From: Arenicola marina
Taxonomy: Eukaryota; Annelida; Polychaeta; Arenicolidae
Direction of reading: 5' to 3'
Assembly (NCBI GenBank): GCA_964019135.1
Contig: OZ025248.1
Span: 70,376,119 to 70,440,118, forward strand
Length of the DNA stretch: 64,000 bases
The position numbers and the translations under genes were made by a program. Shown here in pieces: positions 26,010 through 62,000 of the stretch (position 1 is its first letter; the number at the start of each line of letters is the position of its first letter). Below the pieces are notes generated by a model. It was not told the origin of the DNA and ran no database searches. It saw only the letters and a program-made list of their open reading frames with translations.

Positions 26010-26175
26010 GTCAGCCGGCCTGTCAGCAATTAAATTTAAACATAAATTGTGTATCAATCTCCAAGGTCCATATTTATATATAATTTACTTGTTGCATGAT
26101 AAAACGTAATCACCGAAAAACTGTTTCATAATGTGTAGATAATATAATTTTTGCTTCGTTTTTTTTCTATCCTAG

Positions 26176-29564: not shown

Positions 29565-29627
29565 ATAAAGGTGTTCGCCAAGGCCTTGACCACGGCCCAC
29601 GCGCTCAACCTGTACCACAATCCATAA
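29565..29627 (+). pseudogene. Copy 1 last exon with stop codon
   Basis: 63 nt after CTTACAG: IKVFAKALTTAHALNLY...stop TAA at 29625. Same length and stop position as copy 2. Confidence 0.75.
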
Positions 29628-35398: not shown

Positions 35399-36382
35399 AT
35401 GGCGACCAGTGCCAACAGGCAGAACCGTTCGGCCAGCCGCAGCGATCAGCCAGGCGCCCGGCGTGGCTTACAGTACAAGGGCCCGTGAGGGGGGGGGGGA
35501 GTAGCCATGTCGCGTGTCAACTTTAAGAAAAGATCCATGTCGCGTGTCGATTTTAAGAAAAGGTCCATGTCGCGTGTCGATTTTAAATAAAGTTCCATGT
35601 CGCGTGTCGCTAAGCCTTATGTCGCATGTCGATTCTAAGACAACACAAATGTCGCACTGTCGATTTAAAAAATCGCCGTGTCGAAATAGCCCCTCCGGGG
35701 CCCTAGTACAACGATGTAGCCAGCGGGCGCGGGGGCGGCCAGTGTACACTGGAAGACAAAATGGACCAAGTGCTGCAGGGCCTGGCTTTGTTGACCAACA
35801 CGACAACAACACGAGGAGTTGCGTGCGGACCTCAGCCGAGTCCACGAGTCGGTGGTCCTAGTGACATCCAGGGTTGACCAGGTGGAGTCTAGGGTGGAGC
35901 TCCTGGAATATGTCAGCCTTGACCTAGAAGCCAGATCGAGAAGACAGAAGGTCATTGTTGACGGGCTTGAGGAGCGCGAGGGGGAAGATGCCGATACTTC
36001 GATCACTAACTTCCTGATTAACGATCTCGAGATCAGCGACAGGATTCCCGTGCAGCGAGTCCATCGCCTGGGGCGTGGCCGGCGGCTACGTCCTCTCATC
36101 GCTGCGCTGTCTGACGAACCACACATCGACATGATCTTCCAGGCAGCAAAAGCCAAACTGCAAGGACGGGATATCCGTGTCAGCCGTGACTACCCGCACG
36201 AAATCCGGGCTGCGAGACAGGAGCTTGGACGGAAGCTGCGGGAGCTCCGAGATGCAGGGCACGACGCCTATATCGCCTTCCCAGCAGGACTGGTCGTTAA
36301 CGGGGAGACGGCGGAGGATAGGTTCCCCAGGTGGCATCAGCGGAGAGCCAGAATTTCAGCGAACGCCAGCGGAGATGCCTAG
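35399..36382 (+). pseudogene. LINE-1 ORF1 (coiled coil + RRM/CTD), interrupted
   Basis: ATG at 35399 opens MATSANRQNRSASR and stops at 35488 where a repeat-rich insertion (to about 35700) follows. ORF1 resumes, and after a one-base shift near 35810 runs to 36382. This part has a heptad-like coiled coil (LRADLSRVHESVVLVTSRVD), the RRQKVIVDGLEE start of an L1-type RRM, VHRLGRGRR, and a CTD with SRDYPHEIRAARQELGR. ORF1p chaperones element RNA. Confidence 0.75.
35486..35700. repeat. 30-bp minisatellite / poly-G insertion inside LINE-1 ORF1
   Basis: Three clean and several degenerate units of CATGTCGCGTGTCGATTTTA, preceded by a run of about 11 G. GGGCCC occurs at both edges (35480 and 35698 region), hinting at an insertion with a short target duplication. 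Confidence 0.6.
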
Positions 36383-36389
36383 GACAAGA

Positions 36390-37235
36390 GGCTCTCGTGT
36401 ATATCTGTCTGCTCATGGAATGCACAAGGAATAATAAGCATGGGGGTATCTAAGTTGGATTTGACAGACGTCTGGGAAATGTTGTTGAAACATGACATCA
36501 TTTGTATTTGTGAGAGCTGGTTAAACTCTACTTTGAATTATGATTTAACCGGGTATGAGAACATTGCGTTTCACCGTCGGAGACGAAGAAGAGCCAAGAG
36601 AGACTCTGGGGGGGCTTCTTGTGTACTTTAAGACGGAGTTAAGTAGAGGTATTGAGTTTGTTAAAAACTATGACGATGATTTGGTTTGGCTTAAACTAAA
36701 CGGTTCATTTTTCGGTCGGCAGAGGGATATTATGTTGTGTTTATGCTATGTGGTGCCCGATGGTTCATCCAGGAAGGAAGTGTCTGATTTTGATGCGCTC
36801 AGCCAGGTAACTGACAATATTGCCCTCTTTGAATCCACACTGGGGGAAATGGATTATATGTTAATTTGTGACTTTAACTCCATGACAGGTGTGGTTCACG
36901 ATTATGTGGACGATGATAACGATATATATGTACCAGTGCCGGATGTATATAAAACAGACGAAACGTTTTAAACTAGATGTTCTAGAGACAAGCCGGTAAC
37001 GCCAAATGGCACGAAGTTATTAGATTTGTGTAAAGCTTGTCATCTTCGCATTGTTAATGGAAGAATCGGTGAAGATAAAGGGGTTGGTCAGTACACTTTT
37101 CACTCTAGCCGAGGCAGCAGTGTCGTGGATTATATTATATGTTCACCACGCCTGTTTAAAAATTTGGTTAACTTTAAAGAGTGTGATATTAAGTGTCAGA
37201 TCATAACGCGCTGTCATGTGTGTTAAATGCCAGAT
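36390..37235 (+). pseudogene. LINE-1 APE endonuclease domain, broken
   Basis: Motifs in order over at least three frames: CSWNAQGI (about 36405), IICICESWL (about 36500), LICDFNSM (GDFN changed to CDFN), DLCKACHLRIVNGR, SSVVDYIICS and VSDHNAL (about 37190). The catalytic SDH is present but the domain cannot be read in one piece. Confidence 0.75.
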
Positions 37236-37489
37236 TTGTTGCTAAGAACCCTGTGAATACATGTAGCCCTAAATTTGTTTGGAAACAGGAGAAGAGAGAT
37301 GTATACGTGGCGTCGCTAAATGATAAATTGGCCACCATTGAAGAAATTGTATCAGACATTGGTTCCTGTAACAGCGCAGAAATGATTGAGGCTAAGATAT
37401 GCAATTTCACCGACCTTATTAACGATGTTGCTAAACCTGTTTTCCTCACGGGAACCAAAAGCGCGACAAGCAACATGCGAAAGCTTAGA

Positions 37490-38760
37490 CCAGCATGCTA
37501 CAGCGCGACTGTTGAACAAAAGCGAAACAGCTTCATGAGGTGTCTGAATTTATATAGAAAGCGCGGATCTGATCCGGATAGATGTGATATGATAGCAGCT
37601 AGACAGGCTTTTAAGGAAGCAGTCAGATCACATAAGTGGGAACGAGAGAAGAAAGATACACAGGCCCTACTTCAAGCACGGTATAAGAACGCCAAACTAT
37701 TGGAAGTTATTAAAAGGAGCGAAATCGCGGCGTAAGAGTACCATTTCTTCGCACGTCTTTTATGAATATTTTAAGGGTTTAAATACCCCGGACTATGTTG
37801 TGGATGACGTTGACGATGAGTCCGTAGCAAGCCTTGTGGATGGCGATGTTGACGAAATATATTTAGAGCTGAGTTTGTGTATGAAGATATCCGTAACGCG
37901 GTCTCACAATTAAAACTCAACAAGACTCCGGGATGTGACATGATTATCAACGAGTTTATTATACACGGAATTGATATACTTGTCATCCCCATAACGAAAC
38001 TTTTTAACCATCTCTTGATGAAAGGTTGCTTCTCTAGTGTTTGGTCGGAAGGTTTAATTATACCGCTATATAAGGAGGGCGATATCGACATGGCTAGCAA
38101 CTACAGAGGTATCACACTATTGAGCTCACTGGGCAAGCTGTTCACAATTAGTTATTAATAATCGTCTGGATAACTGGGCTGATGAATACGGTATCCTGTT
38201 GGAAGCGCAAGCAGGTTTCCGTAAGACATATAGTACTGTCGATCAGACATTTATACTTCAAAGTCTTGGGTCTCATGCTTTAGAACAGGGGCGTCGTCTA
38301 TATTGCGCTTTTATCGACTTCAGAAGAGCCGTTGGGGGAGTAAATAGGAAGTGGTTTAAGTTAATCAAAAATGGATTAAGGGGACATCTTTTGAAGGTTA
38401 TACAGAATATGTACAAACAGGTCAAGTGCAAAGTTTTACTTTGTGATGGCACGACCTCCGAAAGCTTCGACTCTGCTATTGGAGCTCGGCAAGGCGAGAC
38501 ACTATATCTCCCTTCTTGTTTTCAATGTATATAAATGACATGGAATAATATATAAGGAGACAAGGGGTAGAAGGAATCTCCATGGGACAAAAAAAGTTAT
38601 TTTTATTGCTCTACGCTGATAATGCTGTCTTAGTCTGCGAATCTGCGGAAGCGTTACAGAAGTCATTAGATGCCTTAACACGATATTGTGACGAGTGGAA
38701 ATTAGTAGTTAACAGTGGCAAAAGCAAAGTGATGAATTTTCACAAAGGATGAAGTCTACG
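37490..38760 (+). pseudogene. LINE-1 reverse transcriptase, broken
   Basis: Fragments in order: NKTPGCDMIINEF, IIPLYKEGD, NYRGITLLSSLGKLF, AQAGFRKTYSTVDQTF, CAFIDFRRAV (motif A), GARQGE (motif B) and LLYADNAVLV (motif C, 38612-38623). Motif C should be YADD; the second Asp is Asn here. Frame breaks near 37735, 38155 and 38530. Confidence 0.8.
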
Positions 38761-38775
38761 TAAAAGTCTCAGATT

Positions 38776-39552
38776 TTGTCACAATGGGAAAGAAATCGAC
38801 ATAGTGTTAACACTTTCTGTTATTTAGGCATTGTATTGTCCTCTTCTGGCAAATTTTACCAAACGCAGAAAAGTTTAGCTGATCAAGCTACGAAGCCTTT
38901 ATTCCAGATGAAGAAATATGTCTGTAAATTTCACTCTCTCCGTCCTACCCACCGTATGGAGTTATTTGACAAATTGATAAGACCAATATTGAAATACGGT
39001 GCAGAAGTTTGGGGTTTCCATACTGGCCAGGCAATCGAACGAATCCATACTAAATACTTGAAAAAATCTTCGAAGGTTAAAACCAGTACCCCAAACCATA
39101 TAGCTAGGAGTGAACTCGGCCGATTAGACATGAAAACTCAGAGGTTGATAAAAATAATCAGTTACTGGGTAAAGGTTATATATTTGAATGATTCACGGTA
39201 TGTTAAGCGATTGTATAAGGTGCTGTTGGAAAATTTAGAGTTAGGACGACGTAACTGGGCGTTGATGGTACGTGATTCGCTAATGTCGCTGGTGATGGGG
39301 AATGTCTGGCTCTGGCAGTCCGTTGGAGATATCCAGGCGTTCATGTACCTCTTTAAACAGCGGGCGAAGGATTGTAATTTTCAAACGGTACCAGCCAAGC
39401 TATCGGAAACCTCTCGTGGTACGCAATATTTACAATATAGTGTTTTGCCCATGCTTCCCTCATACTTTGCTAATGTGGAAAAGAACAGATTTATGTATTC
39501 TTTAATTAAGCTCCGAATCTTTAGCCACCGCCTCCGCATTGAAACTGGGTGA
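38776..39552 (+). pseudogene. LINE-1 RT C-terminal region (258 codons open)
   Basis: Continues the RT with FCYLGIVLSSSGKF, the strand following motif D/E, then SLADQATKPLFQMKK and LIRPILKYGAEVWGF, the usual thumb/C-terminal region of jockey-like LINEs. Open to the TGA at 39552, followed by the 3' UTR. Confidence 0.75.
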
Positions 39553-40049
39553 TGGCACAAGCCAAAGCCACTGCCCGTGGAACAGAACAGATTGTCTGAA
39601 TATGTTTATCTGGCCAGCAAGATGAGAGAACCTGAATAACGTTACAGTGTACTAATGTATGAACCCGCCACATGTCATAATGTGTATTGCATTTTTTTAA
39701 CACGAGGGCCTCAGGCTCATTGTTGCTTTGAAATAAACTAAACTAAAAACATTATGCACCCGAGACTCGAGGACTCTTGACAGTTATTATTTGTCGCGCG
39801 TCGCTGGAGATGACCGGACTGATGTCGTGTATGTTTCTGGTTTTTGTCATTGTGGTCATAGAGAGAGCGTTTTGCGGTTAGAAAATTAACACCAGCGGTC
39901 ATGGCAGTTAATTGAAGCATATGAATGTTAATTAGGCGAGCAGTTTTGCTCTGGAATGACACATTGTAACAAAAAAGGGGTCATTTGGGCAGCACATTTA
40001 CATGTAGGCCTACTTAACTATATGTGGTGCCCCCCACTACAATAGCGGG

Positions 40050-40310
40050 ACCCTGTCATAACGGGGACACTATCATAACGAGGGCACTATCATAACGGGC
40101 TCACTATCATAGCGGGGACACCATCATAGCGGGGACACTACCATAGCGAGGACACTATCATAGCTTGGACACTATCATAGCTTGGACACTATCATAGCTT
40201 GGACGCTATCATTGCAGGGACACTATCATAGCTTGAACGCCATCATAGCGGGGACCCTATCATAGCGGGGGGCGATATCACAGTGGGGCATACTACCATA
40301 GCGGGATTCT
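40050..40310. repeat. 17-bp minisatellite (ACTATCATAGCGGGGAC)
   Basis: About fifteen imperfect units of ACTATCATAGCGGGGAC with GCTTGGAC variants, just before the LINE-2 insertion site. Confidence 0.9.
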
Positions 40311-40371: not shown

Positions 40372-40384
40372 GGGTGTCCAACCT
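40372..40384. repeat. LINE-2 target-site duplication, left
   Basis: GGGTGTCCAACCT, identical to 45553-45565 across the element. The last T may belong to the poly(A)-derived T-run. Confidence 0.9.
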
Positions 40385-40385
40385 T

Positions 40386-40421
40386 TTTTTTTTTTCTTTT
40401 TTTTTTTTATTTTTTTTTTAT
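40386..40421 (-). other. LINE-2 poly(A) tail
   Basis: Plus-strand T-runs broken by single C or A bases, i.e. an A-rich 3' tail on the minus strand, directly abutting the left target duplication. Confidence 0.9.
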
Positions 40422-40506
40422 TTAACCCAATGAAACATTACAATGGTGTATACGGCATACATAATAGTGACAAAAGCACGTTAAGCAAGTTTACACATCC
40501 ATTTCA

Positions 40507-43500
40507 TCATTTAAGTAGCATTTTTCTTAAGTTGCCCCATTTGCTCATAAATTGATCACTCGTCGGCTCTAATTTTCTCTTTTCTATCTCGTTTTCTATC
40601 ACATATACTGCTTTTAACCTGTTCATAAACATTTCAACTGACGGTAGGCTGCTTTTACATTTAGAGATAAAAATACAATGTTTGGCGATAAGGTAGATAT
40701 GATTTATAAGCCCATTGTGCTCTTCGTAACTTCCTAGGAGAACATTTATCTTATTTAAAAACGGACTCATGTCGATGTATAAACTTAAGCGATTTTGTAG
40801 ACTTTGCCAAAACGCTTGTACCATATGGCAGTCCCAAAACAAATGTTCGACAGTCTCTATTTGTTCTTTACAAAAGGTGCAAAGGTCACATGGCACAATG
40901 TTACATAACTTTAAGAATTTATTTGTAGGTAGTACACGCTGCAGTAGTTTATATTGAAAGCTTCTAATGCGACTGTCAAGAGTAGTTCGAAAGGCTATTT
41001 GATATATATTTTTCCATTCCAACTTATCCAAACTTTTGGCTAGTGATTCCTCCCATTTGCGTTGTCTTTGCTGAACCGACTTTGCAACGCTTATGACTTT
41101 CCAGTAGACAAAATTGCAACAATGTGAGGTCTCGAGAATTTCTACAAGAAGTTCGTCCGTTTTGCGGGAAGGTATTTGCAGTATACCAAGCCCGACCTCG
41201 CGCCATCGTTCACACACTTGATATCTAAGTGAGAGGAAATCGAGCACATTCATAGATACATTATACTTTGATACAAATGCCTCAAACGTTAACGGAGCCC
41301 CATTTTCACCCAGTAGATCCATCACCAAAACGCAATCTTTTCTAACCAGTGGCTTTTTATAAGTAAGTACATTCTTATTTGTAACATAACTTGAATTCCA
41401 GAAAGTATATTTGAACCACATATCCGTGGGGTCTACGGCGGTTCGGTATTTTTGCCACACTAACAACACGTTTCTCCAAAATACATTATTTATACCTCTA
41501 GCCAGTGTGGTCACTGACTTTGGATCTAAACTCCATAGCAGAATATCATTCTCCATACCCAACAGATACTTGGCTAAACGCTGCCAATTTCCTTCAGAGG
41601 ATTCAAGTCTTTTAATCCATGTCACCTGTAGCGCTTCGCTCAGTGTCTTGACGTCTGTAAGTTGTATACCCCCATTTTCATATCTTTGCACCAGTTGTGA
41701 GTGGGATACCTTAGCTCTTTTTCCATCCCAAATGAAATCGTTTATTGACTTTTGAATCTTGTCAAGAAAGGTAGTCTTGGCCGGAATCACTGACAGTACA
41801 TGAATTAATTTAGGCACAACCAGGCTTTTAACCACTGCAGCTTTTCCCATGATAGAAAGTCTCTTTGATTTATAGAATGTTAGTATTCTGGTTATAGCGT
41901 GAAGTTTTTCGTCGATGTTATTTTCCAGCAGGTTTGTCGTTTCCGCCCCGAATTGAATTCCCAATAGTTTAAATTCCTTTACCCATTTTATAGGGTATTC
42001 TGGGCATAAACAATTATCTGAGTTTCGCATGCTACCCAACCACACCGCCTGCGTTTTGTCTAGATTTATTCTGAGTCCTGAACACAGATAGAATAACCTA
42101 AACGTTTTTAGAGCAGCAGCCAGTGACTTTTCGTCCTGTTTCATTAACAGAAAGGTGTCATCTGCATATTGACCAAGGAGAACAGAGATTGACCCAATTT
42201 CTATACCATGTATATCGGGGTTTTGTCGTATCGTTTCCGCTAGTGGCTCTACTGCAAGGATAAACAAATATGGCGAAAGGGGGTCACCTTGGCGACAACC
42301 GCGGCCCAGTTTGAAGAAGGGAGAAAAATGTCCATTATTTATAACGCAACTTTCTGCTTCACAATATAAGGTTTTGAAATATTCCACAAATCGATCTCCG
42401 ATGTTATACGCCTTCATAGTCTTTATGATATAGCTCCATTCTACGGTATCAAAAGCTTTTTCGAAATCTATTAATAGTAGTAGTCCTGGCTTGTTATTCT
42501 TATTCAGGTAGTCAATAACGTCATAGATCAGTCTAGTGTGCTCTCCGATGAAACGACCCTTAAGAAACCCTTTTTGATCCGTATGGATAATATCTGCGAG
42601 CACCTTTTTTAACCGATTTGCCAGAACTCCGGATAACACCTTATAGTCGGCGTTTATTAAGGAAATAGGCCTCCAGTTCTTCAACAACTCTCTTGGTTTT
42701 CCCGGCTTAGGTAAACAGGTGATAATACCTTGACGCTGAGTTACTGAGAGTTTTCCATGCGTAATGCCGTGTTGCAGGCTTCTTAACAAAAAGTGGCCTA
42801 TATCTTGCCAAAAAAAATTGTAAAATTCAGCAGGGAAGCCGTCTGACCCTGGCGACTTTTCATTCTTCATATTTCTTAACACCTGTTTAACTTCGTTAAC
42901 AGTTATAGTACTGTCACAGTATTCTTGACTCTCGTCACTTAGCGGCTTGACAACATCTCTTGCTAAGAAGGCACCAATCGATTCGCCACTTTTGTTTACT
43001 GACGTGTATAAGTTTCTATAGAATAATGTTTGTTCTCTCAAAATAGCCGGTCCACCTGTAATTTCTTCACCGTTTGACACGATTTTCGTTATTAGTTTAC
43101 TCACATAATTTCGTTTTTCTAACCCGCAGAAAAATTTACTGGGCTTCTCACCCTCTTCATAGATTTGCACTTTGGCTCTCACCATTGCACCTTTTGTTTT
43201 TTCACCTCTAAGTACATTCAGCAGGTCTCTTTTTTCCTGTAGCTTCTCTCTATCAGTTAACACATTTGCACTGTCTACCTCTTTTTCAAGTTCTTGTATT
43301 TCCTTCTCTAAGTCTATCTCCACTTTCTGTGCTTGTCGTTTTTTGTATGACGCAAAAGATATACTTTTCCCTCTTATCTCCGTCTTCAGTACATCAAAGA
43401 ATAGTGCATCGTTGACCACAAATTTCGCCTCCGGGTCATTTATATCTTCTCCCTCGAGTATGTAACGCTCAATGTTTTCTTTTATAACCTTCTTCATACA

Positions 43501-43596
43501 GTTCACATATTCTTTATCTCGCAGAAGTGACACATTGAGCTTCCAGAAACCCTTACCTCGCGGCTCATTGAATTCTTGCAGTGCAAACGTTATCAA
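40507..43596 (-). CDS. LINE-2 ORF2 reverse transcriptase part (1029 codons, intact)
   Basis: Copies the element RNA into DNA at a nicked target. RT motifs in order: NEKSPGSDGFPAEFYNFFW, GIITCLPKPGKP, NWRPISLINADYKVLSG, QKGFLKGRFIGEHTRL, LLLIDFEKAFDTVEWSYI (motif A), GRGCRQGDPLSPYLF (motif B) and GQYADDTFLLM (motif C, YADD at residues 477-480, 42157-42168). The C-terminus has a zinc-finger-like CDLCTFCKEQIETVEHLFWDC (zf-RVT type). The frame starts at a TTG that is not a true start: the coding sequence is the continuation of the endonuclease frame across a small deletion at about 43596. Style and layout fit the Tx1/L1 group. The RT itself shows no damage. Confidence 0.93.
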   Translation of the reverse strand: MITFALQEFNEPRGKGFWKLNVSLLRDKEYVNCMKKVIKENIERYILEGEDINDPEAKFVVNDALFFDVLKTEIRGKSISFASYKKRQAQKVEIDLEKEIQELEKEVDSANVLTDREKLQEKRDLLNVLRGEKTKGAMVRAKVQIYEEGEKPSKFFCGLEKRNYVSKLITKIVSNGEEITGGPAILREQTLFYRNLYTSVNKSGESIGAFLARDVVKPLSDESQEYCDSTITVNEVKQVLRNMKNEKSPGSDGFPAEFYNFFWQDIGHFLLRSLQHGITHGKLSVTQRQGIITCLPKPGKPRELLKNWRPISLINADYKVLSGVLANRLKKVLADIIHTDQKGFLKGRFIGEHTRLIYDVIDYLNKNNKPGLLLLIDFEKAFDTVEWSYIIKTMKAYNIGDRFVEYFKTLYCEAESCVINNGHFSPFFKLGRGCRQGDPLSPYLFILAVEPLAETIRQNPDIHGIEIGSISVLLGQYADDTFLLMKQDEKSLAAALKTFRLFYLCSGLRINLDKTQAVWLGSMRNSDNCLCPEYPIKWVKEFKLLGIQFGAETTNLLENNIDEKLHAITRILTFYKSKRLSIMGKAAVVKSLVVPKLIHVLSVIPAKTTFLDKIQKSINDFIWDGKRAKVSHSQLVQRYENGGIQLTDVKTLSEALQVTWIKRLESSEGNWQRLAKYLLGMENDILLWSLDPKSVTTLARGINNVFWRNVLLVWQKYRTAVDPTDMWFKYTFWNSSYVTNKNVLTYKKPLVRKDCVLVMDLLGENGAPLTFEAFVSKYNVSMNVLDFLSLRYQVCERWREVGLGILQIPSRKTDELLVEILETSHCCNFVYWKVISVAKSVQQRQRKWEESLAKSLDKLEWKNIYQIAFRTTLDSRIRSFQYKLLQRVLPTNKFLKLCNIVPCDLCTFCKEQIETVEHLFWDCHMVQAFWQSLQNRLSLYIDMSPFLNKINVLLGSYEEHNGLINHIYLIAKHCIFISKCKSSLPSVEMFMNRLKAVYVIENEIEKRKLEPTSDQFMSKWGNLRKMLLK

Positions 43597-44273
43597 CGAA
43601 TTCGTATATCAGCACAAGCCATTTCGGCAAATAGGTCTTCTGAAACCAGAAAGAAGTCTAATCTTGCACTTTTGTGTGGTTTACTGTCACTTCTCCATGT
43701 GTAGCGCTTAACATCCTGGTTGTTTACCCTCCACGGGTCAATCAGGTTAAACTCATCGCATAATGATTTGACCGTTCGTGTTGCTTTTAGATTATTCTGT
43801 CTAACGTATCCTCGGGTGTCGCGTTCGAAATCTTGGACTAAATTCCAATCCCCACATATAAGCAGTGATTCATTTTGCAAGTTACGGACTATATCTGCGA
43901 TATTTTCGAAAAACTTTGGTTTATCTGTGTTTGGACCATACAGTGTTATAAATGTTATTGATCTATCCCGCAAGGCCAAGTTAATAGCCGTATAATTACC
44001 CTCGGGGTCTCTTACAGTTTCTGTAATACTATATTCAAAGTTGTCATTAAAGAGTATAGCAGTACCCCTTGCATTGCTCTTATATGGGCTAACTATCACC
44101 TGTCCTTTCCATTCTGCTTCAAATTTATGAAGTTGTTGTTCACTGCAGTGGATATCTTGTAAACTGTAGATGTTAAAACTTTTTTCTCTAAGCCACCTGA
44201 ACACATCAGCCCTTTTTTCTTTATCAGCCAGCCCCCGTACATTCATACTACCAAATGTTATATCACCAAACAT
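43593..44273 (-). pseudogene. LINE-2 ORF2 endonuclease part (226 codons), lacks final SDH motif
   Basis: Starts MFGDITFGSMNVRG. APE-type motifs follow: SLQDIHC, LYGPNTDKP, LICGDWNLV, KRYTWRS and ARLDFFLVS. After ACADIRIR the frame meets TGA, and the RT frame resumes as ITFALQEFN one base out of register. Related elements have a short PGYRSDHS-like segment exactly here, so a small deletion has removed the catalytic His motif and shifted the frame. It is one ORF2 split by a mutation, not two genes. Confidence 0.85.
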
Positions 44274-44806
44274 AGGGTTACGAATGGGAAACGCTCCGTT
44301 GCTTTTGAGCTGAAAGGTTCAAATTCCATGTGATATAGACATTTTACACGTGCTTTCTCTTCATCATAACACTGTTTCAATGATTCATGTATACCAGTAC
44401 TGACATAACATATCTTTGCCCACCCCAGTATACAGACCTCCCCCCTAAAGCACAAGCGACTAATGATTGACATTTCCCCACAGCTATTGGCACACGGTAA
44501 CACATTGGCTCCTAATTTAGTTTGTCTTAATTTGACAGGATTACTCCCTTACCATAGAATTCCTCTATAAAGCACTAGCAAGTAACTTTATACCAATGTA
44601 CGTAACGTTTCTTAAATTGCACATTTTCCCTTACTCATTACACAGCATTATAGGAAAAACAACCATGATTTGAGACGATAGGCACGACCGTTAATGCTCG
44701 TGTACCTTGTTTCGTTGTCACATGTCTAAAAAACTGTCCCTGAAATACACAACCAATTAATTGAAATTGATCATGCCGTCGGCCTTCAAGCCTTTGTTAG
44801 TCACTT
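44274..44806 (-). other. LINE-2 spacer between ORF1 and ORF2
   Basis: About 530 bp with no conserved frame; an 81-codon frame at 44258-44503 is unrecognised. The length is large for an inter-ORF spacer. Confidence 0.5.
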
Positions 44807-45562
44807 TTACACATTAACAGCGGCTGCTGCTTCTAAAGCTGAGTCGAGTGCTTGCTCAATCATCTGGAAACGGAGGTGGCCGAGATGAGCATCCCCGCGA
44901 AGCCGACTTATGAAGACCGCGATGTTTTTCTTGTTTCGACGTTGCAGCAGATACCGGATATGTCTTGAAACTCCATATTCGCCGTCGTCTTCTCCCCCCT
45001 CGTCGATCTCTCCCACGGCGCTTTGTCGTGCGATTCTGTACGTTGCCGAGTTATGAGTCGCTGAAGCCTTGTTGGGGTTGAACAGCAGGCAACGGTAGGC
45101 GTCCCGCGCTTGTGACAGACTCGTCACATCCGTGACGGTGGCTTGAAAAGAGCTGCCCTTCTGAGTTACGACGCTTCCGTGGATGAGGGTGGGTGAACTT
45201 TGTTCGATTTCATCCTTTTCGCCGGCGGACAACTCAAGCAAATTCCTAGTCGTCGGAGTCGGAATTTTTGCTTTTTGTTTATCACCGTTGACAAACAGTT
45301 CGTCGTTCGTCATCTTAATGCGCAGCTTTTGAGATCCCGCCTTAGCTTTTAATTGATCGGCCCGTTCACTAAGCGCTCTGCGTGCCTCTTGCACTTCGGT
45401 GGGGTAATGGGGTGTTAATTTCAGCAGCCTTGGTCCTCTTGGTAGTGTACGCCCGAGTTCAATTACTTTATCGGCAGCCTTCTGGGACAAGAATCTGACG
45501 ACAATCGGTCGGGGCCTCGTGACTTTTGCTGGGTTGTACACTCCGAGCCTTAGGGTGTCCAA
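44807..45562 (-). CDS. LINE-2 ORF1: RRM/CTD followed by IMPACT/YigZ-like domain, 5'-truncated
   Basis: Frame of 251 codons ending TAA. The first three or four codons derive from the target duplication (TTG start, no ATG); element sequence starts at the RLG of the usual HRLG motif. Residues 17-95 match the end of an L1-type RRM (RPRPIVVRFLSQKAADKVIE) and the CTD (TPHYPTEVQEARRALSERAD, MTNDELFVNGD). Residues about 133-242 then look like an IMPACT/UPF0029 (YigZ) domain: SSFQATVTDVTSLSQARDAY, ASATHNSATYRI, EGGEDDGEYGV and NIAVFISRLRGDAHLGHLRF. These align with the family's F.A...v.s..eA, A.Hn..aYR, DDGE and V.VsR..GG..LG..R signatures. The domain lies wholly between the target duplications and in the same frame. 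IMPACT proteins regulate GCN1/GCN2 signalling and YigZ may bind RNA; the role here is unknown. Confidence 0.75.
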   Translation of the reverse strand: MDTLRLGVYNPAKVTRPRPIVVRFLSQKAADKVIELGRTLPRGPRLLKLTPHYPTEVQEARRALSERADQLKAKAGSQKLRIKMTNDELFVNGDKQKAKIPTPTTRNLLELSAGEKDEIEQSSPTLIHGSVVTQKGSSFQATVTDVTSLSQARDAYRCLLFNPNKASATHNSATYRIARQSAVGEIDEGGEDDGEYGVSRHIRYLLQRRNKKNIAVFISRLRGDAHLGHLRFQMIEQALDSALEAAAAVNV

Positions 45563-45565
45563 CCT
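45553..45565. repeat. LINE-2 target-site duplication, right
   Basis: GGGTGTCCAACCT, exact match to 40372-40384. Confidence 0.9.
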
Positions 45566-50000: not shown

Positions 50001-53000
50001 GTAAGTCAAGATACGAAATAGGTCATTCTTTCTATCGCATCGAGTTTTCAGTTTGTCACCTTAATAATTTAACTAGTGAAGGACTTTTCAAACAACCATT
50101 TACAGTCGATGACTGTGCAAGTCAGTGGGCTGGTATGTGTGTAGAGAACAGAATAGGGGGGGGGGGGGCGTACTTTATACATTGCTGGATTTGGAAGTGT
50201 TCCGCGGTAAAGCTGGCCGGTTATTAGCCCCATGTGACGTTGTTGGGAAACAACGCCACATGTCCGGACCATCAAATCCTGTATGGCATTTTTCAAACAC
50301 GCGTGGCGAGAAGCGGTGCTGATGGCGAGAACTTTTTGGGGTATGGCAATAGTTTCTAAAAGTATGCATCTTACAACTTATCTTGTTATTTTGGTTGAAG
50401 TCTCCATGATTACGACGATATCCTCTGTTGATTTTCCGAAGCAGCAGACAACTAAGTTCTGTCCGCCAGCTTGCCCACCCAGTGGAGAAACGGCATGTCG
50501 TTAAAACCACACAATTCGCTTGGTGGCGTTTCATACACCCAGCCATTGACACGCAGTAAGCGAAACGCCACCTGGCGAACAACTGTCTCATATGGGACTA
50601 GCCAGTTATCACCTATAAAATCCACGCGGAAGGGATATGAGGTTACTCATATCCCTTTGAGTTTGGAAGGGGTATCTTTTTTTACCCGTTCAATGTTGCA
50701 ATTCACTGCAGATCCGCTCGGGGTATTTTTTTTTTTTTTTTTTTTTATTTGCATCAATCCAGAGTACATAGGTTCACGAATCGCCTTAGGTGATGAATAC
50801 AAGAATACAATCACAGCACTCTTTGGTGCCCAGGGGAACAACTTAACTAAGATGAGTAACAATTGATTTTGGAAATATGCAAAATCTGTCAAATATATAA
50901 CAAACATTTGATATCTATCACAATGCATGATACAAATGCTCTATTGCATTTTCACAATAATTCTGCTTTAGTTTTTCTATAATATATTCTGTCTGAACAC
51001 GATTTTTTAATTCTATCAACAATTCATAGAGATATAGTCTTCTTCCATTTAGCTTTGAACGGTAAATGTACCATTTTGCACATAATATAACATAATTCAA
51101 AGAGTACATCAACACATCGTTATCAAATGGTATGCCAAAGAGAACGTCGATTTTTGAGAAAGGCAAATATACATCAAGGCTTGTCTTTACCCAATTTCTG
51201 ACACTATCCCAGAAAAACTCAACAACCTTGCATGAATAAAATAGGTGTTCAATACTTTGTTCCTGGGTACATGATCACAAGATGGGCTATCGATGATTTT
51301 CCATGTAAATAGATTTTTATTGCATGGAAGTATTCTATGTATTAACGAAAGTTGAAAGGATTGGAGTTTTGTACTTCTCATTACTTTAGATGGAGGTAGG
51401 AAAAATTTGCTAAAATCTATTTCATTTAAGAATGGGAAAAGTTCAATCCATCGATCGATAGCTGTGGGGTATTTCTTTATCTTATTCACAAACATCTAGT
51501 AAACAGTTTGGCTTGTTAAATTTTGTTGACTACCCTTGCTGCACTCTGTTATGACGCTTCTCTTAAGATTGAAATATTCTTTAACTAAGAGGTGTCCAGA
51601 CTGACGTAACACTGTTTTCCACTTTTTGGGTATGGCATGAATCAAACTATTGTATTTCATTATGTCGATAGGTAATCCAAATTTAAGTGACAATTCATTA
51701 GTTAGGATAATGTTGCCATCTTCGTTGAGAATATCTGCATTATTGTTTATGCCATGTGTTGCCCAGTGTCTGTATTGGTTACTGACTGGTTTATTATTTA
51801 TAGTGATAAATTTATTGTTCCAGAGTTTTTCTTTAAGCATTTCATCGTCAGTAGGTTCGATGGAGTAAAAATCATACCATGCATGTAACATTTGATTATA
51901 AAACTCTGTTTGCTTCGGAATTATATTTACGCTTAGCTTACTTTGAAGATCTTCTTCTGATATACGCATTAAAGTCAGCGCTATCTGTTTCCATTTAGGA
52001 TTTTCGTTATTTAATATGCGTTTAACCCATGACACTTTTTGGCTCAACAGCATGATCTCAAAGCTTGGCATTTTTAGTCCTCCATCCTTAGTACTGGAAA
52101 TCAATGTCGATGTCTTAACTTTTGAGTTTTTATTACTCCATACAAACTTATTTATGGCTCTGTCTACTTTTTGGATGAAGCATTTTGGCACATAGAGGAC
52201 AGATGTTGCATATAAAAGTTGAGGCATTGCCAGGCTTTTCGTTACAGTGATGTTTCCTTTTAATGATAGGTCACGAGCAGACCAGATGTTTAGCAAAGTT
52301 TTAAATTTTTTATAACGGTCTTCCAAGTTTACTTGAGACATTTCATGAAGGTCTCTACAGAAGTATATTCCAAGAGTTTTAAAACTATTCTCTGCTATTT
52401 CAAATGTCTTCAAAGATGTGTTAGGCCTATGATTTGTATTGCCCAGATAAAATATTACAGTTTTAGATTTGTTTAATTTGAGACCAGAATAGGTTGCAAA
52501 GAGTTCAAGTATTATCAGACTTTCAGACAGAGACTTATAATCCTTTAAAAATAATGTGGTATCATCGGCTAGCTGAGATAGTTTAGATTCTTGTCCATTA
52601 ATGTTAATACCTCGAATACTCTTGCTGTTTCTAATCTTTGTTGCTAAGGTTTCTGCCACTAAAATAAATAACAAAGCACTTATTGGACAGCCCTGTCGAA
52701 TTCCTCTCGTTAGACGAAAAAACTCGGCAATATTACCATTATTCATGCAGCAAGCTGTTATATCTCTATAAATCAATGAAATCCACTGCCTATCTACTAG
52801 ACCAAAATTCATTACATGAAGAACTAGTTGAATATATGACCACTTCACCGTGTCAAAGGCTTTTTCGAAGTCTAAAAGAGCTATCATGCCAGATTTCTGG
52901 TTAAGATTTGTATACTCTATTATGTCTGCAATCGTTCTAATATTGGTCTCTATATAACGCCCTTTAATATAACCACTTTGGTCGAAGTCAATTAAGTTTG

Positions 53001-56000
53001 GTATAACAGTCTGCAGCCGGTTTGCCAGAGTTTTTGTAAGTATTTTATAATCGGTGTTCAGTAGACTCAAGGGCCTCCATGAAGTAAGATGGCGTAAGTC
53101 CTTATTTGCTTTTGGTATTAGTGTTAAGATACCTCCTCTCTGTTCTATGCTAAGCTTAGTGTTAGTGAAAGCATGCATGAAGCTTTCAAAAATGATATAT
53201 TTAATATCGGCCCAAAAGAACTTATAGAAGGTTTTGTTGTTAGCCATTTGCTTACGGGCCGCTGATACTTCATCCAAGGTTATTTCTTCATCACACAAGT
53301 TCCTATCTTTTTCACTAATTTTTGCTTGAGATTCTTCAATAAACCCGGCTGTTTTGTCACATTCATTCTCGTCTGTTTGTTCGGTGTACAAGTGTTCATA
53401 GAAACACCCCGCTCGGGGTATTCTTTTTGCCCGCCAAACACGCCCCATGGACGCACATAATGAGAGTTCCCCCCCTCCCCTCCCCTGAGGGAGTCAATGT
53501 CGGATAAAAAGTGAATCCAAACTCTGCATAAAGGGGACTTTGAAGGAACCATTTTTAACCAATGTTCAGCACGATGTAGGCATTTGGAATTGTAAGGTCA
53601 GTTGACAGCAAGTATATTAATCATATTGCGAACAACACAGGGGCTGGTGTATGCCGCTATGAATATGTACCACTTTCAGCCTGCTACAGCCTGCCCTGTC
53701 AGAGCAGGGGCTGGTGTATCTTCATTACACTCTGAATACACTTTCAGCCTGCTACAGTCAGCCCTGCATGAACAATGGCATGTGTCTGCCGAAGAATGAC
53801 GACGACTACGTCTGCCGCTGTAGCTATGGCTTCGAGGGGCCTAATTGCGTATACAGTAAGGAGACCCAGTAACCATAATAGAAACCGCATAATCTGAATA
53901 ATTTTTGATGTCTGACGAGAAACCCAAAGCATTAAATCCAGGAATGTAACAGCATTGGTTTTAATTGTTACCGATTCCTTTCCCGGAAAGACACAGCGCT
54001 ATTTATTAACTCCTTTGTCCTTCGTGGTCAATGACCTGGTTTTATGTGTCTTTTGTCAGAGATGTCGATGTGCACGATATCCGGAGATCCACATATCATG
54101 ACATTCGACAAATCTCGGATCGCTTACCAGGGTTTGTGCAAATACACGGTGGCCGCCTCCAATGCCACCACGTTCCAGAGTATAATGGCGTTCGCTGTGA
54201 CGGCGGTCAATGAACGCCGAGGTAATAACGACAACGTCTCGTACCCAAAGTACTACGAGATCTCGGTGTATGATTACCTCATCAGACTGGACAAGAACCA
54301 GACTGTCTATGTGAGTGAGCACGCGAAGTATAGGAACTGCATATGTAGAGAAGTAAGGAGTAACGTTAGGGGCGGATTTAGGCATTTGAAACTAACCCCC
54401 CCTCCCTCCCTCTTGGATCCGCCTCTGATCGTAATATCTTCAAACATCAAGGATTGAGGAAGTGCAAGGCGGTCACGTGACCCCAATAGGTACTGCATCT
54501 TCACCCCCGTAATTAAAAAAGATATTGACAAATTCATTACACTATTATTGCTCAAATGTTCTTGATTCTTGTTTTGGCATTTTCGCCCGCGTACACATAT
54601 TTCGTTGTCCTGGTGACGAAGACACGCGCGAGAGTTTCTGTTTATATCACGCCTGACGCCATTGATGTAAACTGTCTTGAAAAAGAATACCTGACTCTGA
54701 TTAAGATGTGATCCTAAAGCTGTTTTCCTTGAATGACCTCCAGGTGGATGGCGAGCTTGTGCAACCACAAGTCACGTATCCCGGCTTCAGTATCATCTTT
54801 AACGGTCGCTTCGTGCGGCTGGAGACCAACTTTAGCTTGATCGTGGAGTTTGACGGTGACTGGACCGCCTTCATCAAGGTGCCGCCGGTCTACGGCAACA
54901 AGACGGAGGGCGTCTGTGGGAACAATGACGGTAACCCAGACAACGATTACGTGACTCGGGAAGGGGTTGACGTGTCAAGTGATCCGATGAGGTACTCACT
55001 GATCGGGAACAGTTGGATGCACAACCGCACTGACCCTACGTGAGTTGTGTGGCATATGGTTGGTGATTCATTATTCTCCATGTGATAGACGCCAGATATG
55101 CCATGTAGTTGGTGATTCATTATTCTCCATGTGATAGACGCCAGATATGCCATGTAGTTGGTGATTCATTATTCTCCATGTGATAGTCGCCAGATATGCT
55201 AGGTAGTTGGTGATTCATTATTCTCCATGTGATAGTCGCCAGATATGCCATGTAGTTGGTGATTCATTATTCTCCATTTGATAGACGCCAAATATGGTTG
55301 TGATTCATTATTCTCCGTGTGATAGACGCCAGATATGATTGGTGATTCATTATTCTCCGTATGATTGACGTCAGCTATTATTGGTGATCCATTACTCCGC
55401 ATGTGAATAAAAACATACCAAAACAAAATAACCAAAATTTTAGTAAGTTACGCTTACATACCAGTATGGTTGGTTATGCATCATTAAATGACTTCACAAC
55501 ATGATATATATCTTTGTGAATGCCGTATCTCGCAGATGTAGTAACGACCTGGATGCGCCAGATATCCCAGAGTGTGAGGAACCCCTGAAGTCGCTCATCG
55601 CCGGGGCCAGCTACTGCGGCCCGATGGTGGACCTGCTGGGTTCCTTCTCGCTGTGCCTGGCCGACCCCGCCATGGACAACTTGCAGTACGTAAACTGCCA
55701 ATACGACGTCTGTGCCAACCAGGGCGACATCGTTGCCATGGACGACGCCAGATGCGGGTCGGTGGCAGCCATGGCGTTTAGATGCGCCGCTCTGGGGTTC
55801 TTGGCCGATTGGCGTTCTGCCTTCAATTGCTGTAGGTTTAACTTTTGTTTTCCTTTCAGCCTACTCTTATTGAAGTAAACTACATCTTAGGTCGTTTTAT
55901 GTGTACATAAAGGCTAAATATGGCAAAAAATCTTCAGAGACTATGAAATAGAGTGAAATAAAACTTGCCGCGGATGCAGGCACCAAGGTTTAACCCACGA

Positions 56001-59000
56001 TCTATTGATCTGCATTTCGGCCTACTTACAGACTGAGATTGAGGGGTTTTACTCTTATTAACCACTGAGACGTAATTCAAGCGGCATTGCGAGCGTAAAT
56101 GACAATATTATTATTAATACGATCCGAGTTCCGTTTCTGCACCAATAATTTAGCTTTCTTCCCACCATCATCACGTTGTCAAAAGCAACCAATACATAGT
56201 TTCAATGCACTATTTAGCCCTCCACTGCCCCTCGGGGACGATCTACCAGTACGATGCACCAGCCTGTCCGGCCACGTGTCAGAATCCGGATGGCCCTGAG
56301 CAGTGCCACCTGCCGGACACGGAGAGCTGTGTGTGTCCTGGGACATCGGTCCTCTCGCACGGAAGCTGTATAAACGCCACGCTGTGCGGCTGCTACGACC
56401 AGGACGGAAACCACTACGAGGTAAGAATTAGATTCAAGATTTATGGGATAGAGTACCAAGTAAAAGACAATACCAATTTTTATCGTTTTGATGTATCCAA
56501 TCTGTGATCTGATCACTCATTTTTTTGAACAGCAAGTTTTGCGACTAAACGACTAAACAAGGCTGACTCGGCCCCACCGTGAGTATATATCTAAGTACAT
56601 ATCTCTCGCGCGCATCCATTAGGCATGCCGATGTGCCCAGTTATAATAGCACGGGACATTCGGGAGAAGAATGAATCTGATTAAAAGGTGACTGTCTAGG
56701 CTGGTTCCTTTGCCCCTGAACGAACCAGAAAGGACCAGTGTGAAGATTTTATTGACATTCAGCGTAGCTCTTTCTGCAGGTATGAAAGAGATTGAGTATG
56801 CCGGGCGGCATGCCGGTCCCGGACCAAAGAAATACACCCTATGACGACCAATGGCATTAACGTAACGCAAATAACGTTTTCTTATTGTATAGGAAAAATG
56901 TCTACCGTCCATATTGACAAGAATATTGAATAAATATGTATTTTTACAAATGTGTTATATTCCAGATCGGAGACGTGTGGCTGGCGGCGGAGTGCCTAAC
57001 GAAGTACTCGTGTGAGGTGTGTTACAACTGCACAAGACCCACCGGTCACATCGTGCAGACCAATCACAGCTGCGAGCTCACCGAGACCTGTGTGACGTCA
57101 CAAGGAGCAGTCTCGTGCGTCGGTAAGTGTTAATTGATGAAACGTATTCATACATGCGCCGTCTTCGCAAAAAATATGACTGGCGGAATGAGTTTATATT
57201 TTGGTGCCTTCTTGAACTTTTCTACGGAGATAGGCCTATATACCTTATTTCCAGGTTACTGCCAATGCATTTATCAACTTAATAAGCTTGTGTCTAAATG
57301 TCGTTCATAGACGTAAATGACTAATGTCTTAATTGCATCCAGATGAGACATTTTTCGTCTGCATAGATGACAGCATAGTTCGAATATTTAATTGTCCACA
57401 GAAAATGTTGTCATGCGATGGCACAAAGTTGACGTCTCGTGAAGATGAAAAAAATACCCAGAATTCGTTGCACATGCAGTGGAATAATGTGAACTAACTG
57501 ATTTGCAAAGTCTTTGGCAATGATAGACATAATAAATGGGTGAGTCACACGGCCGATTTCAGTTCTGCGTGACGTCGCGAGGAATCGTGACTCGAGATGC
57601 TAAAACGGTACCAGGTCCAGTAACTATAAACACACGGGGTTGGCCAGTAAAGCATTAAATAAAGTGCATGCATCTCATGGGTCCAAAGAGACCTCCAAGA
57701 CATGACTCTCAATATATTGTGCAATAAAAAGAGAAGACCCGTTAATTTATTCCTGGGAACTGTGAAAAAGATTTTCGGTTATGCCACATGACAGCGATCA
57801 TTGGACGGTTCGCTTCCGTAAATGTAGCTTCCCGCTTGATGAGCTGGTGCTCTGAACGCATGAGACGGGCAGTTGCACTTAGTTACAACATAGCACAGGG
57901 GGACCACACACCTCCCATACCTAACGGTTACCTGGTTTATCCGAAATACCACATCGAGTTCGATGCATTGGTGGTCAAATTTGTTGTTCCTGTGGTTATC
58001 ATTTGCATTCGATTTTCATAAAGTAAAGAACCTTTGGCAAAGTCGCTTGTCCGGCAATAATATGAAAGGCACGTGCTCATAATGGACACTGGCGAAAGGC
58101 TTACAATATCAATCAAACTGTCATCCAACATTTCTATGAATTTTTTGTCAACAGTATTTGTTGACTATTGGCAAACGGTAGATAATACTATGTTAAGGCC
58201 TCTAGTTGATTCTAGTGGATTGAATACTACTTGCCTGGTAATTATGAAGTGAAAATGTGTGAGGTCACCATATATCACCACCACACTAATAATAATGAAC
58301 ATTTTCAGATTACTGCGCCGGAGATCCGTGTGGCATTGGCGGTACCTGTGTCAGGCACAACGACAGCTTCACATGTGTTTGCCAGGCCGGCTACAGCGGG
58401 ACCCAGTGCCAGCCAGGTCAAAGACTGACACTGCTGGAACAGTTATTAAAAGACAGTTATTAAAAGAAATGAATTAAATTATAGCAGTTAATGAAAAAGT
58501 ATATCATTCCATTTATGTCGTTATGCAAAACAAAAATTAAGAATCCACAGAGATTTTTTAGGAACATGTTATTTATTCGTATCTTCTCTTTCTTTTCCGT
58601 ATATTTTTTAATTACCGTTATATATTATAACATAACGTATCCACGTGTTTTCTTTACTCATTAAGATGTAAGGACGTGGATTTGTCTTCGATAATAAGCA
58701 AACCGCACATTTGAGAATACTTGGAATTAATCCAAATCAAACGATTTCCGCGCACTACAGTATCATATTGTAGCATAGTGACGGCATATGGACTTTGCAT
58801 TTACATTAGAGTTAACATGTTTGGGTTTTCTCCGGAAAAAACGGTAACCTAGTTTCCTTATTAACGTGAAGAAAGTTTGGCCCTGGTGACAATATCCTGC
58901 GGCGGAAGGGCACAGCATGTGGCAAAGCATTTAAGTCTCCAACTATCATGATGCGACAATGATCTACCATCAACATGCTGCTCAATGAACGAATAACCAT

Positions 59001-62000
59001 TGCGAAGCACTAATGGCTTCTAATTCTGGTTTAATGCAAGTTCCCTTTCTTTTCAGACATTGTCTATAATGATACCACGTTTGTAGACTGGCAGAACAGA
59101 TTGGTTTGTCAATGCACCTGCTCTATGGGTACGTCGGAAGTCGCCGTGGGCCTCAAAAAATTTCACAACAACTAATACTGACCGACTGCTTTTACAACAT
59201 AACATGCATACACCCACTTTTCGTTTGAAGATGTCAGTGCAGTTTGTATTTCATTACGTGTAGGTCATATAATACATCCATGGTATCCGTCTGACCTATC
59301 TTCACTACCTTGTGAGATAGAATCTCAAATAAAAACAAAAGAGAACGTAGTCAGCAAGTGAATACGAACATTGATTTACACGCCATTGGTTTTCTCTCAG
59401 CCCCGTGTGACCAGGACGCACTGCTTCATTTCTCATTCGACGTCGACTTTAATGACGTCAGTTGTGACAAAGTCGTATCGAACGTCATCGGCGACCCTGC
59501 AATCAATTGGGACGCCAAGAATAACAATTCGGCTTACTTCGATAACGGTGCCCATCTCACCGTCAGTTACCTCACCAACTGGTCAGTCGGCCTGTCAGCC
59601 ATTAAATGTAAACATAAAGTTTGTATCAATTTTTAAGGTCCATCTTTATATATAATTTACTTGTTGTATGATAAAACGTCACCGATTTTTTTTTTGCATA
59701 ATGTGTAGTTAATATAATTTTCTCTTCGTTTTTTTCAATCCTAGGTTCAACATGAAACAGGTCAATGAGTGGACAGTGAGCATATGGTTCAAGCTGCTCA
59801 CTCTATCCGCACAGGGCCTCCAGGGTCTGATCAACAACGGTAACTGCAACAACGAAACAACGCCTGGCTTCGCCCTCTACCTGGAGGCCGGCAACCTGCT
59901 GAAGGGCAGCATCGACACCGTCAGCGGACCGCCAATCGCCATCTCTGCAGCCCCGGTGGGTGTCATGGTGACTGGTCCATGAGGGGGGTAGAGGAGGGGG
60001 TGGAGCGCTAACAGTAGTCGTGGGAACCACGGTGGGTTTCATGGTGACCGTACCACATCAAACCATATTAAAGATTATGACAACATATATATCTGCAACC
60101 GACATTAAGTACCGTGTCGCTCGCCCAACTGACCAGGTAATGGCCTGGATGTTGTAGATGACCCCGGGTGTTTGGCACCATGCGGCCATGGCCTACGACG
60201 GCTTAGAGCTCGTGATGTACGTCGACGGCGAATTGGCGGGGAAGATACCAGCTTCCGGTAAGAATGGCTAAACACCTGGAGACGTAGCAAAGTCGACACA
60301 TCGGTAGTGTCTACATGCATAAATATATATATAGTATATCTGATATACTACCACAGACAATAAATTCGAAATAAATAAAGTCCGCCATAGATCATCTGCT
60401 GCGGTCGGCATGCCTTTTACACACGACTCATGATTATCCTAGTGCCGAAACAAGCAACATGTATCTTTTTAATTGGGGTTGGAGGGGGGGGGGGTAATGG
60501 GCCGGTGGTTAGCACGCACGACGTTGTCGAGTAAGCTCTGTCAGGTCAGTTGTAGTCTAATAAACATTGAATTCGAAGTTTAAGTCTAATATACATTTAA
60601 AAAACATTAAACCATTGAATATATAATGACGTTTTTATATATTAATCAAGATTTAATATTGAAACAAATACTTACCTGTGTTAATACATTGATTTGATCT
60701 ACTCATCTATTGCTTTATCATGTCATGTCAAATTTGTGTCATCTTACTGTCGATGTGAGCATCCTTAAAAAAATTGTGGCAGGTAGATCCATGCAATACT
60801 CTAGTGCACACATCATGCACACCTTTTGTGGTGTTCTTGTCTGACTGCTCCAATCTGCAGGTAACGATCAAAATCATACCTGTAAATTCAGATTACCGTG
60901 TTCCTTCACAGTGGAAGCTAAGTTATCAAATGAAAAAAAAAGATTTCAGAATTATACACATCAATTAGGGGTCTAAAAAATAGATAATAAGAACATCAAT
61001 TAGAAATATTAGAAGAATCGGCTTCCACGGTTTTTTGTGGCACCCTCGTATGTATAAACATCTCAAATTTGCTACTCACCTTGCTTGTATCGGAACACAA
61101 TCTTTGCATCCTGTTGTGCATTCCGCGGAGGCCGACTACACCACTCGCATATCCTAACTCACCCTAACTAAAGGTTCCCCATTTAACAAAAACTTGACAT
61201 TGCCGAAGTACTTGCCTTCCTGTGATTTTGTGGTATCGCTTTGGCGTGCTAACTGGGAGTTTCTCCCCCCTCGCATCCTCACAGGTGCCATGGAGACTAC
61301 GAACTGTCCATTGAGCATAGCGCACGCAGGGACCAGCCCGACAGCCGGTAATTTCGACGGATTCCTTGATGAGGTACGTGGCGAATGAGACCTAAATCAT
61401 TAAGCTTATGCTATATTAACATAGTTATAGTTCATAACGTGTGTCTCATGGGCATCTAATAGAAGAACCGTCAGTGCCGACTGTTTCTTGGCCTCCTTAA
61501 TAATCTGCCATTTTAATGGCAATGCTCTTCTATTAATATATTGGTTTATAGAACCATTATAATTGTTGTATGATGCTTGAACTTAATACATCAAATGCTT
61601 TCTTCAAGTGCAATAACAGTAGCTTACTCGGATAAGTCTTTAGCAATACCTTTGTTTGTGGTCCTGATTATTTTCAATGTTGGGGCGAGAAACATGGCGA
61701 TATTTGGTTCAACTTTGTTTCAGTATGTCGCCCTTTAGGAAACAAAACTTTCCTTGTCTCCGAGTTCTCGATGACACTCAAGTACACATACGCATACCAA
61801 AGATGGTTCATTTAATCAATGTCACTATTTGAATTATTTCTCATGTCCTTGATAATAGATAACCTTCGTCTCGGATATCAGTGTAACGCACTTACTGAGA
61901 CTGTCAGTTTCATAATGGGGAACAATCCTGTAAAATCCATGTTGAATATAATACAAGTGTTTATCTAACGCTGGCGCAAGCTTCTGATAAATCAATTGTA

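Follow-up and report, generated by a model that had tools for sequence, protein, structure and literature searches.

Here, we describe, in the genome of the annelid Arenicola marina, a LINE whose ORF1 is of a new architecture, in that the RRM and CTD of an L1-type ORF1 are followed in the same frame by a UPF0029/IMPACT domain. Our analysis directly supports the fusion itself, its presence in many copies, the joint descent of the domain with the RRM/CTD part, the low level of replacement change between families and a conflict between the ORF1 and reverse transcriptase (RT) trees. It is likely, in our assessment, that this ORF1 is an L1-type packaging protein with a diverged IMPACT domain at its C-terminus, and that it constitutes an inherited, constrained cassette of several LINE lineages that has been exchanged between L1 and non-L1 elements. 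Both the constraint between families and the sharing of the ORF1 with non-L1-like ORF2s go beyond what an earlier note on this DNA had expected.

The element lies in a 64,000-nucleotide stretch of contig OZ025248.1 (assembly GCA_964019135.1), referred to below as the window, and comprises the following features:

40372..40384, no strand: 3' target-site duplication, next to the poly(A) end, a perfect copy of GGGTGTCCAACCT
40385..45552, minus: L1-clade LINE insertion, 5'-truncated, 5168 bp, flanked on both sides by perfect 13-bp target duplications
40385..40423, minus: poly(A) tail of the element, seen as poly-T on the plus strand from 40384 to 40423
40507..43608, minus: ORF2 of the L1 clade, RT part with a zinc finger at the C-terminus (RVT_1 2.7e-38, zf-RVT 3.6e-8)
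43593..44270, minus: endonuclease part of ORF2, taken from the first Met (PF03372 5.1e-10)
44807..45550, minus: 3' part of ORF1, starting with RLG of HRLG and ending at the stop, without the N-terminus found in longer copies
44834..45160, minus: UPF0029/IMPACT domain (PF01205); in the translation of 45565-44807 (252 aa), it spans residues 136-244
45209..45550 (approximate limits), minus: last part of the RRM, followed by the CTD, in an L1-type (type II) ORF1, placed by Smith-Waterman comparison and a profile of 20 relatives
45553..45565, no strand: 5' target-site duplication, reading GGGTGTCCAACCT on the plus strand

The duplicated 13-mer occurs exactly twice within the window, both strands counted, and its two positions set the limits of the element proper at 45552-40385. 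The perfect target duplications that had been reported around the fusion are thus borne out, with no third occurrence in the window, whereas the interval first given for the fusion, 44807..45562, is mostly element but takes in about 10 bases of the target site at its start. With a target duplication and a poly(A) tail, the window LINE has the marks of a target-primed insertion. Its ORF2 combines an APE-type endonuclease with an RT nearest to that of LINE-1, which places it in the L1 clade; in the PDB search, the RT part is closest to human LINE-1 ORF2p (1.8e-85), the best R2 match being 7.9e-25. The endonuclease and RT parts of this copy sit in two different frames, and 536 nt separate ORF1 from ORF2. 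A longer copy, L021, is 99.3% identical to the window LINE over 5179 aligned columns. Just beyond the 3' side of the insertion lies a 17-bp minisatellite (40042-40305, unit ATAGCGGGGACACTATC, 15.5 copies).

The ORF1 frame is open over 253 aa from stop to stop (45568-44807, minus strand). The ORF1 part begins at the RLG of HRLG, where longer copies show AHRLG, so that the window copy is devoid of the ORF1 N-terminus. The Pfam profile PF01205 (UPF0029) matches the translation over its whole length (1-107 of 107) with an E-value of 6.9e-13 and a score of 49 bits (gathering score 27); this check, which the earlier note had recommended, bears out its IMPACT domain, and the architecture read there, an L1-type RRM/CTD and this domain in one frame, is confirmed. 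A sequence search of the PDB with the window ORF1 gave a single match at E<=1, to 6bqi ('Protein IMPACT homolog', 2.7e-7), and nothing matched in NCBIfam. The structure predicted from the single window sequence is a low-confidence model (pLDDT 38, pTM 0.21). The target duplications and the copies found across the genome agree that the domain travels with the element and is not neighbouring host sequence, as had been claimed, and they rule out adjacency to a host gene as the source of the fusion. The GC content of ORF1 (44807-45550) is 0.50 in the CTD part and 0.55 in the IMPACT part, and that of the endonuclease, RT and inter-ORF sequence (40507-44318) is 0.39-0.40; the GC-richer ORF1 is in keeping with a possible foreign origin of this gene within this L1 lineage.

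Taken alone, the RRM/CTD half of the window ORF1 has no convincing match in Pfam or the PDB, and BLASTP of the window ORF1 against the ORF1 of a third LINE in the window (35795-36382, plus strand) gave an E-value of 0.36. By Smith-Waterman comparison, the score of the RRM/CTD half against that ORF1 was matched in 1 of 5000 shuffles, and the IMPACT half gave no alignment to it, 991 of 1000 shuffles being equally good. The profile built from 20 ORF1s matched LINE-1 ORF1p in the PDB (2ykp, 2yko and 2ldy, 9.4e-6 to 4.7e-5, columns 135-271, with 2ykp at 9.4e-6) and, in a separate half (columns 321-437), IMPACT at 9.7e-11. The RRM and CTD that characterize a type II ORF1 are therefore found through the 20-ORF1 profile, whereas the Pfam scans of single sequences are silent. 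The third LINE as a whole (35795-39552, plus strand) consists of an ORF1 of the RRM-CTD type and broken pieces of an ORF2. Its ORF1 stops after the CTD, with no match to PF01205, so that type II ORF1s without the domain are also present in this genome and the domain is not universal.

Elsewhere in the window, there is a second LINE (50975-53493, minus strand; RVT_1 2.8e-37), apparently 5'-truncated and with no ORF1 seen, which shares 32% identity with the ORF2 of the element described here. It appears to interrupt one copy of a duplicated region (~20047-30146 and 50110-64000, in blocks mostly 80-92% identical), which contains exons for a C8 domain (20848-21243) and for a von Willebrand D domain (54035-54454). 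A C-rich 71-bp tandem repeat occupies positions 1461-2110 (9.2 copies, 96% matches). Within the window, Rfam yielded nothing at gathering scores and ARAGORN no tRNA.

The genome search for further copies that had been proposed in the earlier note covered the 867-Mb assembly (762 contigs), and the best-scoring 150 of 907 candidates were scored. All 150 rows, which include the window copy and two places counted twice (two rows each), match ORF1, at identities to the window ORF1 that range from 100% down to 36%; an internal stop is absent from 130 of them and present in 20. Two of the 150 rows end before the IMPACT part, both being continued by an adjacent row, and copies devoid of the domain would be under-represented in this set because the best-scoring candidates were chosen. 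Seven rows in 27.34-27.97 Mb of contig C9, four starting from query residue 74 (open frame of 220 aa) and three from residue 28 (252 aa), look as if they were truncated copies multiplied through local duplication. Outside this genome, in collections that appear to be poor in animal genomes, no relative emerged from 2619 (E<=1e-3) or 4419 (E<=10) candidates, nor, for the IMPACT part alone, from 116 candidates (E<=10); viral contigs held no relative of ORF1 or ORF2.

Twenty loci of ~7 kb, plus four more, were retrieved. The ORF1 length from stop to stop is 427-476 aa in 19 of the 20, the frame of L038 extending upstream to 732 aa, and the order is a basic N-terminus, a putative coiled coil, the RRM (with an MRNN-like motif), HRLG, the CTD and the IMPACT domain. 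The stretch ahead of the RRM is presumed to be a coiled coil from its position and the order in LINE-1. The alignment begins at the first Met of each ORF1, and hence L022 and L034 are shortened in it. PF01205 matches 19 of the 20 ORF1s at E<=0.01, with no match in L032; in L031, in which the C-terminus is changed, the score of 26.9 bits falls slightly under the gathering score. Four residues (G378, D381, G383 and G386) do not vary among the 20 rows, in which the C-terminal last residues differ in length, and the DDG motif is present in 19. The loop motif R-[FYW]-[FYW]-G-G is a signature of UPF0029, and none of the 20 ORF1s contains it. Thus, with DDG kept and the loop motif missing, part of the usual UPF0029 surface is altered. 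Direct repeats of ~13-16 bp are found at the ends of L021 and L023, and of eight other copies, six (L027-L031 and L036) have duplications that are partial or offset, the remaining two, L026 and L033, lacking a clean one. Another element, with an open frame of 610 aa (L040:5374-7203), seems to interrupt the L040 copy; the end of this frame looks like a putative YqaJ-type nuclease. An ATGGC(C/G) motif lies at the 5' ends of copies whose ORF2s are unrelated (L021:839, L023:839, L030:836 and L033:806), and the start of L021, GTAAGCAAGATGGCCGAGTAGG, resembles the YY1-type start of human L1; the 5' module may have been exchanged along with ORF1.

Of 40 loci, 27 were left after removal of identical C-termini, and the selection analysis used 22 ORF1s of >=300 aa, with L012 excluded, from which 10 between-family and 7 close pairs were formed; these pairs share rows and are not independent. 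In the 10 between-family pairs, pN of the IMPACT part is 0.191-0.449 at pS 0.603-0.842, similar to the values for the RRM and CTD, and pN of the N-terminal third is higher in all 10. A neutral simulation started from one copy (500 runs, pS 0.55-0.87) gave a minimum pN of 0.338, a median of 0.609 and a printed 1% value of 0.401; the IMPACT part lies below the neutral minimum in 7 of the 10 pairs and below 0.401 in 9. One pair, L036-L023 (dN/dS 0.31), does not fall below the neutral range, its pN being 0.449. The 7 close pairs give no selection signal in dN/dS, there being too few changes. Thus, the IMPACT domain appears, from these substitution patterns, to be constrained between families and kept by selection. 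The check proposed in the earlier note, whether RRM, CTD and IMPACT stay in one frame and evolve under purifying selection, thus shows low replacement change between families and no signal in close copies.

The ORF2s that follow this ORF1 are not all of one kind. In L021-L029, they are L1-clade ORF2s with 53-99% identity to that of the window copy, and in L030-L040, tblastn identity to the window ORF2 is 22-28%, with no hit for L033, L037 and L040. The ORF2s of L039 and L036 reach only ~1e-15 to 1e-16 with LINE-1 ORF2p, near their own R2 scores. In the L033 lineage, a PHD-like finger lies ahead of the endonuclease (PF00628 8.9e-5, slightly under the cut-off). Motifs such as GDIHNNPGPG in L036 would be the basis on which the non-L1 ORF2s could be given names such as CR1 or L2.

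That such an ORF1 and the ORF2 behind it form one element was assessed from 11 pairs of copies, 8 within one subfamily and 3 between subfamilies. In 7 of the 8 within-subfamily pairs, a single element of ~5.5-6.2 kb spans ORF1 and ORF2 at 96-99.8% identity, in one or two blocks; the pairs with an internal break are L030/L031, L032/L042 and L036/L043. The L040/L044 pair has just 2.3 kb in common, because L040 is interrupted, and the pairs L034/L035, L037/L039 and L038/L039, at 64-67%, are too distant to show the unity of the element. Hence, paired copies support ORF1 and ORF2 as one unit for L032, L033, L021, L026, L028 and L030, and there is no within-subfamily pair that proves it for L034, L035, L037, L038 and L039.

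Trees of the RRM+CTD and of the IMPACT part, built from 21 ORF1s of >=300 aa with L012 and L008 excluded, are concordant in their main groups, with L036, on a long branch, taking a different position in each; L036 excepted, this concordance indicates that the domain moves with ORF1. The ORF1 and RT trees, by contrast, conflict. They were compared for 16 elements, L035 and L040 being left out of the RT tree, as no RT core was recognized in them by pattern; another RT tree was likewise without these two and without the window LINE at 51-53.5 kb, which also gave no RT core. The groups to be tested were named post hoc, once the trees had been seen, and the L1 branch in the RT tree is very long. 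The elements L032, L033 and L041, all three paired units, form a clade in the RT tree (92/99, not starred) that is rejected by ORF1 (p-AU 4.3e-10), whereas L033, L041 and L037 form a clade in the ORF1 tree (100/99) that is rejected by RT (p-AU 1.9e-58). The L1-clade copies together with L030-L032 are an ORF1 clade (100/99) rejected by RT (p-AU 4.8e-4), and L034, L037, L038, L039 and L044 an RT clade (98/99) rejected by ORF1 (p-AU 3.2e-4). In the ORF1 tree, the last five form a clade with L033 and L041, and this group is not rejected by RT (p-AU 0.076). Overall, with 5 groups on 2 trees, 5 were already clades and 4 of the 5 tested were rejected. Given the presence of the same ORF1 before non-L1-like ORF2s and the conflict between the ORF1 and RT trees, the ORF1 cassette has probably been swapped between L1-clade and non-L1 LINE lineages. 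Such an exchange could have come about by insertion of a truncated ORF2 downstream of a foreign ORF1, as has been proposed (PMC4120745), or, alternatively, by template switching.

What the domain might do for these elements is a separate matter. L1 RNA is coated by trimers of L1 ORF1p, and the fold of UPF0029 is related to those of domain 2 of ribosomal protein S5 and domain IV of EF-G, both of which contact RNA. We propose that the L1-type ORF1, with its basic N-terminus, probable coiled coil, RRM and CTD, would package RNA and that the IMPACT domain would extend it as a further RNA-contacting, perhaps ribosome-contacting, module of the LINE ribonucleoprotein (RNP); devoid of the GCN1-binding half that cellular IMPACT has, this module could help ORF1p to keep hold of its own RNA. 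This role is our best guess, and a tentative one, to which we would give somewhat less than an even chance; its ribosomal part is weakened by a published passage that does not assign ribosome binding to the ancient domain. Binding of the element's own RNA had also been suggested in the earlier note, and we regard this guess as plausible. A different role put forward there is that the domain dampens the GCN1/GCN2 stress response as cellular IMPACT does, so that translation would continue during the synthesis of LINE RNA and cDNA. The sequence kinship to IMPACT speaks for this, but competition for GCN1 belongs, in the passages available from two studies, to the N-terminal RWD domain (PMC5054600, PMC4503747), whereas Pfam scans of the LINE ORF1s found no RWD family and the L1 RRM/CTD stands in its place. 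That guess is therefore not supported, and we regard interference with GCN1/GCN2 as quite unlikely. Because the ancient domain occurs in the LINE proteins unaccompanied by the RWD that competes for GCN1, RNA contact within the RNP is favoured over it, with the binding of some other host partner ranked between the two. Such a partner (a CDK, actin or a nuclear factor) might serve localisation or the escape from a restriction factor. Yih1 residues 133-258 apparently bind Cdc28 at least as well as the whole protein, according to part of one report (PMC4503747), and the absence of the loop motif from all 20 ORF1s would permit a change of partner; however, our analysis yielded no evidence of one, and we consider this role possible but on the unlikely side.

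Two further explanations would deprive the domain of any role or history in these elements. If it were a functionless, neutral C-terminal tail, the loss of the PF01205 match in L032, the varying length of the last residues and the silence of the close copies as to selection would all be expected, but replacement change under the neutral level in most between-family pairs and the four residues invariant in 20 rows argue to the contrary and make such a tail very unlikely. The fusion could also be a one-off chimera, formed when L1 RNA was template-switched onto a host IMPACT mRNA during this insertion, with which the GC content of 0.50 and 0.55 in ORF1 versus 0.39-0.40 in ORF2 of the window copy would agree. 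The earlier note had itself named a one-off capture in this copy as the outcome that would speak against its claim. This origin is refuted by the genome-wide ORF1 search, in which all 150 scored rows (the best of 907) carry the match, down to 36% identity, and near-identical longer copies hold the same fusion, so that we give it virtually no chance. Returning to the RNA-contacting module, a bolder version of this reading combines it with the exchange of ORF1: the coiled coil-RRM-CTD-IMPACT ORF1 would be a portable cassette moved between LINE superfamilies, in which the RNP would gain, through the IMPACT domain, a handle on host ribosomes or on translation stress control. We find this version unlikely, but were it true, such a handle on the host would favour both the translation and the packaging of LINE RNA.

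The LINE described here can be compared with several known systems. To human LINE-1, it is similar in its nearest ORF2p, the poly(A) tail and the short target duplication, and its ORF1 has the RRM and CTD of human and mouse LINE-1 ORF1p (type II; 2ykp, 2yko, 2ldy) in the same order; it differs from LINE-1 in the ~110-residue UPF0029/IMPACT domain added after the CTD and, in the window copy, in the 536-nt gap between the ORFs. With IMPACT/Yih1 and YigZ, it shares the whole-domain profile match (6bqi at 2.7e-7 and, for the profile, 9.7e-11) and, in 19 of 20 ORF1s, the DDG motif, whereas the fusion to ORF1, the loop motif missing throughout and, in comparison with IMPACT/Yih1 as a GCN2 inhibitor, the lack of any RWD family in Pfam scans set it apart. 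The available text of one study describes this 'ancient' domain as conserved in all kingdoms, with its function and partners elusive (PMC4503747). These LINEs isolate the ancient domain from RWD and keep it, constrained, in many families, with retrotransposition as a countable outcome.

In the literature searched, most subscription journals and repeat databases being outside its scope, we found no description of a LINE ORF1 with an IMPACT/UPF0029 domain; a paper on domain coevolution mentions PF01205 alongside reverse transcriptase in the part available (PMC6822775). Accessory domains of other kinds are described in excerpts on LINEs with an esterase (PMC3905857) and on TRAS elements with a viral-type helicase (PMC5563155), which resemble the present case, as far as these excerpts go, in that an extra domain is kept by lineages, and differ from it in the domain and its position. 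A further parallel is found in the survey of the Jockey superfamily by Metcalfe and Casane (2014; PMC4120745), which, in the sections available, distinguishes modular ORF1s of types I-V, reports type II ORF1s in several clades and PHD fingers in some, and proposes ORF1 shuffling. The modular, reticulate ORF1s of that superfamily, the type II architecture, the PHD finger and the proposed shuffling all recur here. However, the main text of the survey contains neither 'impact' nor 'UPF0029', and the exchange indicated by our trees joins an L1-clade ORF2 and non-L1 ORF2s, adding evidence of ORF1 exchange across the deep split between the L1 clade and other LINEs.
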